DNA of 64,000 nt. It comes from Armatimonadetes bacterium Uphvl-Ar1 (lineage in GTDB: Bacteria; Armatimonadota; Fimbriimonadia; Fimbriimonadales; Fimbriimonadaceae). Each line of letters opens with the position of its first letter. The first letter of the stretch is position 1. Positions 1,895 through 53,407 of the stretch are shown piece by piece. The notes under the pieces were generated by a model, which worked only from the letters and a program-made list of their open reading frames with translations, was not told the origin of the DNA and did not search any database. Location of the stretch: NCBI GenBank assembly GCA_002162075.1, contig CP021423.1:2728001-2792000 (forward strand), in the 5' to 3' direction. Position numbers and translations under genes: made by a program.

Positions 1895-3501
1895 CGTTCG
1901 CCGGGGAGGACGATGCCGCGCATGATGACATTTTGGGCAAAGAAGAAAACGACCAGAGTTGGCAGGGCGGCGAGGGTGACAGCGGCCATAACGATAGCTT
2001 TGGGGGCCGTCAATTGAAGTTGGTAAATGAAGACCATGAGGGTCCACATTTCCCGGTTTTGGGCGACCAGAAAAGCATAAATGAATGCGCCATATGAGCC
2101 CATGAAAGCGAGGAGGGCGAGGTAGCCGAGGACTGGCTTTGAGAGGGGAAAGGCGAGGCGGAGCATCATGAGCCATTCTGGAGCTCCGTCAATTTGTCCG
2201 GATTCAAAGATTTCTTGGGGGAGGGAGTCGAAGAAGCCTTTAAGGAGGAAAATCATGTAGCCAGATGCAGCGGCGGGAAGGACGAGGGCGGCAAAGGTAT
2301 TGAGGAGGTTGAGGTCTTTAAGGAGAAGGAAGCTGGGGATCATTGCAACTTCGGCAGGGAAAGCCATGGTTGCCAGGAGGAAGAGGAGGATTTTGCCCGT
2401 GGACTTCATCGGGAAGCGACTGAGAGCATAGGCAGCGAGGGGGTTGACGGTGAGCTGAATGAGGATCATCAAGCCACAGAAGATGATGGTGTTGGCGACT
2501 GCGCGGCCATTGAGGAGGATGTAGTCCAGCACATAGATGTAGTTGCGCCAAGTGAATTCAGAGCGAATGGACTTTTCGTTCTGACGGAGATAGTGAGTGT
2601 CGAATGCGGCTATGGGGAGGGTATCTGTCGCCGTTACAGAGGGGTTATTGGAGGTCGCCACCCAGTTCATCCATTGGCGCTCGATCGTTCCGTTTTCCTG
2701 AAACGGTTTGGGGAGCGCGGAGGCGAAAAAGTCAATTTGGTCTTGGGGTTGTTTACTTGTGCTAACCAATCGGCTTTGGGAGAAATCGGGGATTGCTCCT
2801 TCTGGAGTGCGGAATGGAATCTCTTTCGGGACGTCACCGAGTTGGTTTTTATATCTGGTGCGGAGGAATTCTTGGTAGAGGCGTTGGGATGAAATGGGGA
2901 TCCGGAATTCTGCGGGGAGGGTTTTCTTGAATTCAAGCCAGTCGGCCCACTTTTGATCTTGTTTGGGATTCCAAGCAGGATCGTCGAGGCGTTCGGGCGG
3001 TGGGGTGACCTGTTGGAAGGCCCCGTTGATTTCGTTGAATGCGGCGTTGACGTCTTCAACTGTTTTGTACTTGGTTCGGAGCCAGGCTTGCCATGCGCGG
3101 TTGAGTCGTGAGGTGACGTTGGTGGATGGGGTTGTGAAACCAGCTAACCACTGGTCAGCGGGGAGTTGGGCGAGGAACTCTTCGAATTCGGCTAGGGTGG
3201 CGGGAGTAGCCTTGTCGGTGTTTGCGGCGGAGGCGATCCAGGAAGCGTTGCCGGCGTATTTGTCGTCGACATATTTGGATTCGAGTTCAGCGAAATCGCT
3301 CCAGAAGGAAGGGATAAGTTTGTTGTCGTTTTGGTCGGTGTTGCCTTTGAATCCGGTCGTGAGCATCGTCAGGAACGGATAGAGCGTTGTCAGTGCGCCG
3401 ATGGTGAGGATGAGATAAACGATCGACATCGCGGCAATGGCGCGGGGGCGTTTGCGACCAACTTTGCCGACGAGTGACATTTCGGCTTTATTGTAATCCA
3501 T
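1891..3501 (-). CDS. MalG-type sugar ABC transporter permease with large insert
   Basis: At 536 residues this is almost twice the usual MalG-type permease (about 280). Residues 25-50 form a first membrane helix. Residues 52-312 are a hydrophilic insert rich in Trp, Lys and Asn/Gln. Residues 313-536 hold the remaining membrane helices. The EAA loop that docks on the ATPase is at about 430-453 (EIFESGQIDGAPEWLMMLRL). By family topology the insert after helix 1 should lie outside the cytoplasm. No partner permease, ATPase or binding protein is adjacent, so the transporter is incomplete here. It is divergent from the GH57 gene with a 46-base gap, which suggests a link to glycan metabolism, but the substrate is unknown. 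Confidence 0.8.
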   Translation of the reverse strand: MDYNKAEMSLVGKVGRKRPRAIAAMSIVYLILTIGALTTLYPFLTMLTTGFKGNTDQNDNKLIPSFWSDFAELESKYVDDKYAGNASWIASAANTDKATPATLAEFEEFLAQLPADQWLAGFTTPSTNVTSRLNRAWQAWLRTKYKTVEDVNAAFNEINGAFQQVTPPPERLDDPAWNPKQDQKWADWLEFKKTLPAEFRIPISSQRLYQEFLRTRYKNQLGDVPKEIPFRTPEGAIPDFSQSRLVSTSKQPQDQIDFFASALPKPFQENGTIERQWMNWVATSNNPSVTATDTLPIAAFDTHYLRQNEKSIRSEFTWRNYIYVLDYILLNGRAVANTIIFCGLMILIQLTVNPLAAYALSRFPMKSTGKILLFLLATMAFPAEVAMIPSFLLLKDLNLLNTFAALVLPAAASGYMIFLLKGFFDSLPQEIFESGQIDGAPEWLMMLRLAFPLSKPVLGYLALLAFMGSYGAFIYAFLVAQNREMWTLMVFIYQLQLTAPKAIVMAAVTLAALPTLVVFFFAQNVIMRGIVLPGER

Positions 3502-44329: not shown

Positions 44330-45331
44330 ATGCGATTAACGCACCTTGTGAAATGCGCGGGTTGAGCGAGTAAATTGGGCCCGACCCAATTGGCGGAGGT
44401 TCTCCGTCAGCTACCCCCACAGACGCATCCCGATCTGCTGGTCGGCTTCGATACGAAGGATGATGCGGGGGTTATTCGTGTGCCGGGGCAACCTCATTTG
44501 GCGCTTATCCAAACGATGGATTTTTTCACACCAGTGGTGGATGATCCTTACTCCTTCGGAGCGATCGCGGCGGCAAATGCGTTGAGCGACGTTTATGCTA
44601 TGGGGGGTCAACCGCTTACCGTGATGAATATCTGTTGTTTTGACCCAGAAGCAGCTCCGGCGGAGGTTTGGGCGAAAGTGTTACTGGGGATGGCAGAAAA
44701 ATGTGCTGAAGCGGGGGCGATGATTGTTGGTGGGCATTCGGTAGAAGATAACGAACCCAAATTTGGGTTGAGCGTTACCGGAACGGTCGCAGTAGATCGA
44801 GTATTTGCAAACTCAAATGCTGTGGTTGGGGAGAAGATTTTTTTAAGCAAACCTCTAGGGTCGGGAATTGCGACGACGGCGGCGAAGTTTGATAAAGCGA
44901 TGCCAGAACAGGTTCAGGCCGTGATAGACGTGATGGCGGCGTTGAATGCAGGTGCGATGGAGGTTGCTCAGGCGGCTGATGTGCGGTGTGCGACGGATAT
45001 CACAGGTTTTGGACTGGTTGGTCACTTATGGAATGTTGCGCGTGCAAGTGGAGTCCGAATAGAAATTGATACGGGCAAATTGCCGTTGCTTGAGGGGACT
45101 CAGGAATTGGTTGAGTGTGGATGCATCACTGGGGGTTCGCGAAAGAATCGGGATGCGCTGGGTGAAAATTTGATTATTGACCAATTGGTTCCGAAATGGC
45201 TTGTCGAGGTTGTGGTTGATCCCCAGACCAGTGGTGGCTTGGCGGTCACGAGTCGGGCTGATGCGCTTGACGGCTATGTTGAGATTGGGCGGGTCATCCC
45301 CGGGGAACCGGGAATCGTTGTCCGGCCATGA
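44330..45331 (+). CDS. selD: Selenophosphate synthase with selenocysteine (in-frame UGA)
   Basis: SelD makes selenophosphate from selenide and ATP for selenocysteine and selenouridine synthesis. An ATG-less reading starts at TTG 44375, but the true start is the ATG at 44330: MRLTHLVKCAG, then TGA at 44363-44365, then ASKLGPTQLAEVL. This is the conserved active-site segment of SelD, in which position 12 is Cys or Sec, so the TGA is read as selenocysteine. FDTKDDAGV and LIQTMDFFTPVVDDPY bind ATP and magnesium, and ALSDVYAMGG and DITGFGLVGHL are family motifs. Corrected length is 333 residues. A hairpin follows the TGA (separate entry). Confidence 0.92.
44373..44391 (+). promoter_or_regulatory. 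selD: Candidate bacterial SECIS hairpin in selD
   Basis: AATTGGG (44373-44379) and CCCAATT (44385-44391) form a perfect 7-bp stem with a 5-base loop CCCGA, starting 8 bases after the selenocysteine TGA. Bacterial SECIS elements lie in this position within the coding region and bind SelB through the apical loop. Confidence 0.6.
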
Positions 45332-51098: not shown

Positions 51099-51114
51099 CG
51101 GTATGATTTGGAGT

Positions 51115-51430
<316 letters not shown>

Positions 51431-51432
<2 letters not shown>

Positions 51433-53407
51433 AGTACTTTATGGTGAAGGGGACAACGGCTTTGAAGACCAGTCGGTCTGTGAATTGATCGGCACGGGGG
51501 TCGCCGATGAGAATGAAGTACTCAGCTCCTTTCTTTCCGCTCAGGCGATAGGAGAGGAACCAGTTGGACTTTCCGTTGAATGAGACGAGTCGTCCGCCGA
51601 TTGATTCAAACTTTCCGATATCGTAGTTGAAGCTCAAGATGTGTTGAGTATCTGTTTCCGTTGTTTCGACGATTTCGGTTGATCCGTTGAATTGAAGTCG
51701 GTTGAGAGGGCGATATCGCCAATTCAATTCGTATTGCTCGAATTGCTCACCTCGGAAGGTTCCGGTGTCGTAATTGAGTCCAACTTGGTTGTATGGGTTG
51801 TTGGTTGGGTAGGCCGCACCGATGCCAAGACCCCGGTCAAAGACTCCTTCAAATTGAGTTTGATTAATTCCTATTCCGACAGAGAGTCCGCTTCTCAGAT
51901 TGACTCCGCCGTTGAGATTGATTTCGTTTCGATAGAAGTCACCACTGAATCGGTCGAAAGTGCTGAGGTTTGCGCTCATGTCGTAGCTATTAATTGATCC
52001 GCTTTTGGGTGTGACCTGATATGAACCGTACGCCGAATAGCCTTTAAGGTCGCGTTCCCGACTAAATCCAATTCGAGGGAGGAACTCGGGCGAAATTGAG
52101 ACATATTCGGTTCCAGCATTTAGGTTTTTGTCTTCATATCTCAAGCCGATGTTGTTTCTCCATCCATTACCATCGATTTGATCGGCGGTGTATTGATTTA
52201 TGGTGTAGTACTCGATGGAACCAGATCGGCCGAAGTAGTTCAAGAGGCCTGCAACGTTGTTTCGACCGGGTTGGGCGTTGTTGACCAGGCCAAAATCGAG
52301 CGATTCATTGTCATTCAATTGGTGTGAGAGCTTGAGGGCAGATGCTTGGCGATTGCCAAAATCTATGGTGGTCAGGGCACCGATGTTAGTCTTGTCATCG
52401 AGTTCTCCATAGATATTGAGGCCAGTATCGAATGTAGGGATACGTTGGGGGGCGAAGAGTCGAGAATCAAAACCAAATCTGAGATATTCGGAGCCTTCTT
52501 GGAAGAACGGCCGATTTTCGTTAGCTAGTCGCTCAAAGAACGAGAAATCGAGCGAGAGGATAGAGTTTTCGACGTTACGAAAATCGGGGTTGACGGTTCC
52601 GACAAATTGGAGGGTTTCAGATAGATTGGTTTTGAAATCAAGTCCGGCGTTGGCGATTGGTCCAGATCCCTTTTCGACACCAAGGAAGGTGTAGGGAAGA
52701 AGGCTGATGGATCGGTCTCTGGGGATTGCTGGAATACTGACTTGTGACCAAACAGGGATGAGCGATGAATCGTTGTTAATAAATCGGAAAGTGTAGGAAT
52801 TTTGCTTGTTTGATCGGAACCAGCGCACATTGAATCGGAGGTCTCGAGTTCCTGCTGAGGGCAGATTCATGATGCTCCAGGGAATTCTCATTTCGGTTTC
52901 CCATCCGGAATCGGTCAATCTGCCGTTGGCTTCTATTTCTCCCAGCCATTCGGTTTTAGCGGCCCTTCCTCCAGAGAGGTTGATTGAGGTTGCTCCGTTT
53001 GAATTGGTGGAGAATGAATTGAAATTGTTGTTTGCTCCAAATGGGTCGAGCAGGAGGGTGAAGTTGTCATTTCCTCTAATATTTGAATTAGGGCGATATT
53101 CTTGGCGGACGACGCGGCGGGGATCCGTTTTGACTCGTCCGGCGAAGTAGATAAATTTTTCATCGTATGTCAGCCAGAATTCGGCGTATTCATCTGATGT
53201 GAGGTTGGTGTCGGCATCAGAAAATCCTTCTCGGCGACTGGCTTCGGGATATTCGCCAACATTAATGGTTCCGTCGGCTTGTGGGGGAGTAGTTGCCGTA
53301 ATTCCGGGAATGTCGAAAGTCTGAGATTGGGGAACGTGGGGGCTTGCTTGAGCGTTACTGCAAAGGAGAATTGCAGTCCAGGCAAGCGCTAGGGAGAAGA
53401 CTTTCAC
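51431..53407 (-). CDS. DUF5916-like outer-membrane protein with CBM9-type domain
   Basis: A 658-residue exported protein; the signal is MKVFSLALAWTAILLCSNAQ. Residues 40-205 are a carbohydrate-binding family 9-like domain (NVGEYPEASRREGFSD; EYAEFWLTYDEKFIYFAGRV; GWETEMRIPWSIMNLP). The rest is a long series of amphipathic strands with Asn and aromatic residues, ending VFKAVVPFTIKY with a terminal aromatic, as in outer-membrane barrels. RPFFQEGSEYLRFGFDSRLF matches the DUF5916 junction motif. Its job is unknown; binding or uptake of a polymer is inference. The stop overlaps rnpB by two bases. Confidence 0.8.

Follow-up and report, generated by a model that had tools for sequence, protein, structure and literature searches.

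A predicted selenocysteine codon and two adjoining hairpins in selD of a Fimbriimonadaceae bacterium

The selD locus and its in-frame UGA

The window, a 64,000-nucleotide stretch of a Fimbriimonadaceae (Armatimonadota) genome that forms one contig of 2,985,450 bases (2.99 Mb), carries a gene for SelD with a UGA codon inside its frame and two abutting hairpins, H1 and H2, shortly after it (Table 1). Read from the ATG at 44330, the frame gives MRLTHLVKCAG, meets the TGA as codon 12, continues with ASKLGPTQLAEVLRQL and runs onward to a terminal TGA stop at 45329-45331; with recoding, the translation begins MRLTHLVKCAGUASKLGPTQLAEVLRQL. Under translation table 11 without recoding, the longest selD frame opens at TTG 44375, downstream of the TGA, and this is the apparent TTG start that a preliminary description of the same DNA had noticed. 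The product matches TIGR00476 with 353.5 bits against a curated cut-off of 125, over profile positions 1-307 of 311. A domain search places AIRS and AIRS_C domains in it, and its relatives in the PDB (3u0o, 2yye) are named selenide, water dikinase. In the PDB alignment U12 lies opposite the Cys of 3u0o, which bears out the earlier identification of MRLTHLVKCAG-TGA-ASKLGPTQL as the SelD active-site segment, and codons 11-15 (G-U-A-S-K) follow the catalytic U/C-x-x-K pattern.

Table 1. Features of the selD locus, and other TGA-containing genes of the genome.
Feature	Position	Strand	Description	Basis or remark
selD, selenide, water dikinase (selenophosphate synthetase)	44330..45331	+	333 residues, predicted Sec at codon 12	TIGR00476, AIRS/AIRS_C, PDB relatives
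Probable start codon	44330..44332	+	ATG	ATG or GTG here in 42/42 family sequences; upstream unconserved
Predicted Sec-UGA codon	44363..44365	+	active-site residue	TGA in 38/41 (first set) and 33/36 (wider phylum sample)
H1	44373..44391	+	AATTGGG-CCCGA-CCCAATT, perfect 7-bp hairpin	family-level accessory, possible spacer
H2, likely bSECIS	44392..44408	+	GGCGGAG-GUU-CUCCGUC	model fit, covariation, decay in Cys forms
TlpA/ResA-like lipoprotein, UxxC	G000:C1:219973-220557 (L063 1318-1908)		FWAFW-U-SSC	loop GGU, 21 nt from UGA
Weaker TlpA-like protein	G000:C1:196425-196763		GEG-U-GAC	loop GGUCU, 18 nt from UGA
SelW-like small protein (Rdx, PF10262), CxxU	G000:C1:2612619-2612795 and beyond (L113 around 1501-1737)		CVR-U	loop AGGU, 21 nt

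Among 42 family sequences the residues RLT and CAG ahead of the TGA are kept in variable codons; R, L, T and the G preceding the Sec codon are invariant while their codons vary (6, 6, 4 and 4, respectively), and the position preceding the start codon shows no conservation. A stretch that is constant in its residues and variable in its codons bears the mark of a translated protein, and since the start codon and the residues that follow it are conserved with varying codons in all 42 sequences, reading through the UGA lies far beyond chance.

The codon itself recurs widely. In the 41 family SelD sequences read, the site is TGA in 38 and Cys in 3, and in a phylum sample of 40 loci it is TGA in 33 and Cys in 3, with 4 unmatched by the motif. 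Across the phylum 123 of 251 genomes have SelD, and about 105 of the 126 SelD rows contain a TGA. Within the family, SelD exceeds its cut-off in 38 of 61 genomes and tRNA-Sec likewise in 38. Taken together, both are found in 38 genomes (a count that takes in G036, whose SelD is a fragment at a contig end), neither in 22 and SelD alone in 1, the genome G054, which is fragmented and 88% complete. The Cys-form SelD loci L040, L048 and L054 lie amid a mostly Sec-form family. Two genomes, G001 and G005, have Cys-SelD yet retain tRNA-Sec, so that other selenoproteins, as clients of that tRNA, are probably present in them.

Selenocysteine machinery in the genome

At scattered positions the genome contains tRNA-Sec (selC; 73.9 bits, anticodon TCA), SelB (351.7 bits, 611 aa) and SelA (430.2 bits). 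The preliminary description had expected all three, and had named their absence from the complete genome as the observation that would overturn its claim of a SelD with UGA at codon 12; the search was run, all three were found in the same genome, and the claim survives. On this comparative record the selD product is very probably a Sec-containing selenophosphate synthetase, with synthesis of selenophosphate from selenide and ATP as its predicted activity. A SelD serving selenouridine was also considered and was rejected, as the genome search returned no SelU/YbbB above its cut-off; Sec is therefore the evident use of selenophosphate here.

Two hairpins downstream of the UGA

Both hairpins were compared with the published bSECIS model (PMC13188914, Fig. 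2A), which has a loop of 3-9 nt, a stem of 4-16 bp and a distance of 16-37 nt from the UGA, with a G among the first two bases of the loop and a free energy no higher than -7.5 kcal/mol (PMC13188914). Pairing was counted in 42 family sequences, 26 sequences from outside the family and 6 Cys forms, against a null that recodes each codon synonymously according to the codon usage of SelD, and changes were mapped onto a tree built from 39 SelD proteins. Only 0.4% of the synonymous recodings make both hairpins perfect. Taken together in one 63-nt segment, the two hairpins have a folding energy of -18.8 kcal/mol, which is unimpressive against shuffles (z -1.2), so that the case rests on comparison and not on energy.

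H2 is alike to the consensus bSECIS (PMC13188914): its 7-bp stem, its 3-nt loop opening with GU and its distance of 33 nt from the UGA all fall within the model, the distance near the upper end of the range. With the top pair open the loop reads GGUUC and matches the favoured G-[G/U] pattern, and the GU is kept in 42 of 42 family sequences. In the family, H2 has 6.57 of 7 pairs per sequence against a null of 4.13 (z 14.6), and outside the family 5.19 of 7 against 3.85 (z 6.2), where these z values, like those for H1, overstate significance because the sequences are related. The tree helps in this respect. On it, pair 30-44 goes from G-C to T-A four separate times and pair 32-42 switches from G-C to C-G with one reversal, and outside the family CAG..CTG replaces GAG..CTC in the stem, a change on both sides; the stem thus covaries beyond what the protein constrains. 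In the register examined, a good H2 is missing from some of the outside sequences. In the six Cys forms only 2-4 of the 7 pairs are left. One of them, L054, is nested among Sec forms and has AUU in place of the GUU loop, apparently a change from Sec to Cys accompanied by decay of H2. When the window was scanned mechanically for SECIS elements, H2 was the candidate followed by the longest frame. Because H2 agrees with the bSECIS model in stem, loop and spacing, shows covariation through much of the phylum and is eroded in the Cys versions, we consider it the likely SECIS of selD and the predicted site of SelB.

H1 was the hairpin singled out in the preliminary description as perfect and beginning 8 bases after the TGA. 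All 7 of its base pairs are complementary, and a gap of 7 nt separates it from the TGA. Its loop, CCCGA, sits 14 nt after the UGA, and neither of the loop's first two bases is a G, so that H1 is unlike the consensus bSECIS in both spacing and loop (PMC13188914). In the family it averages 6.67 pairs out of 7 against a null of 5.46 (z 8.1), and outside the family 4.0 of 7 against 4.26 (z -1.7). On the tree, pair 12-26 goes from C-G to T-A about six times, in changes that leave the protein unaltered. When this stretch of protein is recoded at random with synonymous codons, all 7 H1 pairs arise 16% of the time, and since the codons for KLGPTQL favour pairing, the pairing of H1 taken alone is weak evidence. 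The six Cys forms keep 3-7 of the 7 pairs, and the fact that H1 is largely kept in two of them (6 of 7 in both L040 and L048) indicates that the protein codons explain much of it. H1 is a family-level extra that may act as a spacer or helper.

Such a role could take the form of a composite signal, in which H1 folds the intervening RNA and brings the loop of H2 to the usual SelB distance. The two hairpins abut without a gap (44391/44392), and within the family each of them exceeds its null. Measured from the UGA, the loop of H2 lies 12-15 nt beyond the loops of the three other TGA genes in Table 1, which come 18-21 nt after it. Outside the family, however, the distance between the UGA and H2 is the same in the absence of a conserved H1, and a ribosome at the UGA should partly unwind a hairpin that starts only 7 nt past it. 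We therefore entertain the composite signal tentatively, as a possibility somewhat short of even. If true, it would mean that the bacterial recoding signal has been elaborated in a lineage-specific way in Fimbriimonadaceae selD.

The preliminary description had taken H1 itself for the SECIS, in which case H2 would be incidental. H1 is the hairpin nearest to the UGA, and its excess of pairs within the family and its silent two-sided changes would agree with such a function. But its spacing and loop depart from the published model, its excess of pairs is absent outside the family although SelD is still TGA-coded there, and it largely persists in L040 and L048, which encode Cys. On the strength of its spacing, its loop and its lack of conservation outside the family, we reject H1 as the most likely SECIS and regard this assignment as unlikely; the adjoining H2, which starts immediately past the segment given in the preliminary description, fits where H1 does not. 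Because H1 pairs above the null within the family, it may nevertheless have some role in recoding.

It is very improbable that the UGA is a true stop and that the enzyme is made from TTG 44375 without the N-terminal segment. The open frame of table 11 does begin there, but that form has no catalytic residue, the segment ahead of the UGA shows protein-level conservation in 42 sequences, and tRNA-Sec, SelA and SelB are present in the genome. A sequencing error or pseudogene lesion has a negligible chance, with nothing seen in its favour, and is refuted by the comparative data, the same TGA standing in dozens of other family and phylum genomes with an intact frame behind it.

Proposed mechanism and relation to known systems

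The UGA, its conservation, the machinery and the covarying hairpins are all seen in the sequences, and from them we propose the following path. The ribosome would start at ATG 44330 and meet the UGA at codon 12. SelB carrying Sec-tRNA-Sec would bind H2 (loop G-GU-U-C, 33 nt downstream) and lead to insertion of Sec, both steps that we infer, and Sec would take the place of the catalytic Cys in SelD. This Sec-SelD would make selenophosphate, which SelA would use for more Sec-tRNA. As Sec-SelD would supply the selenophosphate for Sec-tRNA, the enzyme would depend on its own product.

Sec-containing SelD is a well-known selenoprotein, found in many bacteria, and native SelD of Aquifex aeolicus presumably has Sec at this site. 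By sequence search alone, the Aquifex aeolicus enzyme (PDB 2yye, 2zod) belongs to the same family as the one described here. Common features of the known bacterial Sec-SelD (PMC4561486) are Sec in the N-terminal active-site loop, a bSECIS within the gene, and SelA, SelB and tRNA-Sec. The Fimbriimonadaceae genes differ in having the extra H1 between the UGA and the model-conforming H2. The Sec-SelD described here is thus ordinary in kind, and the hairpin layout is a modest new point, a small and testable variation on bacterial recoding. In the open-licence literature we found no paper that joins selenocysteine with Armatimonadota and none on selenocysteine use in Fimbriimonadaceae; the one match that pairs Armatimonadetes with a selenoprotein and the one that pairs Fimbriimonad- with selenocysteine appear to concern other organisms or habitats. 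What appears to be a complete selenocysteine system is documented here across a phylum that has received little study, and the large natural set of compensatory changes allows the SECIS to be located.

Other UGA-containing genes

The preliminary description had also suggested that further UGA-containing genes in the genome may be misannotated, and three more genes with an in-frame TGA and SECIS-like hairpins were indeed present (Table 1). They came from family-wise searches, and the selenoprotein list of the genome is incomplete, with at least three candidates besides selD. Reading every UGA as a stop would shorten or miss selD and these other genes in annotation. The genome has 23 matches to the AhpC-TSA family, two of them, the TlpA-like genes of Table 1, with one in-frame TGA. 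Directly ahead of the UxxC lipoprotein lies a Cys paralogue, likewise a TlpA/ResA-like lipoprotein (FWGFWCPYC, 219414-219944), which makes a tandem CxxC/UxxC pair, and a relative in the genome G049 shares this TGA, again within a tandem Cys/Sec pair. Peroxiredoxin-like UxxC (PF00578) and SelW-like CxxU (PF10262) selenoproteins are both listed in PMC13188914, and the UxxC and CxxU proteins found here are therefore of known kinds. None of the three genome matches to molybdopterin enzymes of the formate dehydrogenase type (PF00384) and none of the ten to thioredoxin (PF00085) contains a TGA. The scan of the window gave 25 mechanical TGA/SECIS candidates including selD, and the rest look by eye like chance frames.

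Three further observations were made. At locus L077 (1327-1911), the last ~36 codons of a TlpA-like TGA gene recur ~1.3 kb downstream on the same strand (3127-3285), resembling a partial duplication of the gene. At locus L001 (1009-1458), an OsmC-like protein with Cys, recognised by eye, adjoins the tRNA-Sec gene. The window also carries a class A RNase P RNA at 51114-51437 (276 bits).
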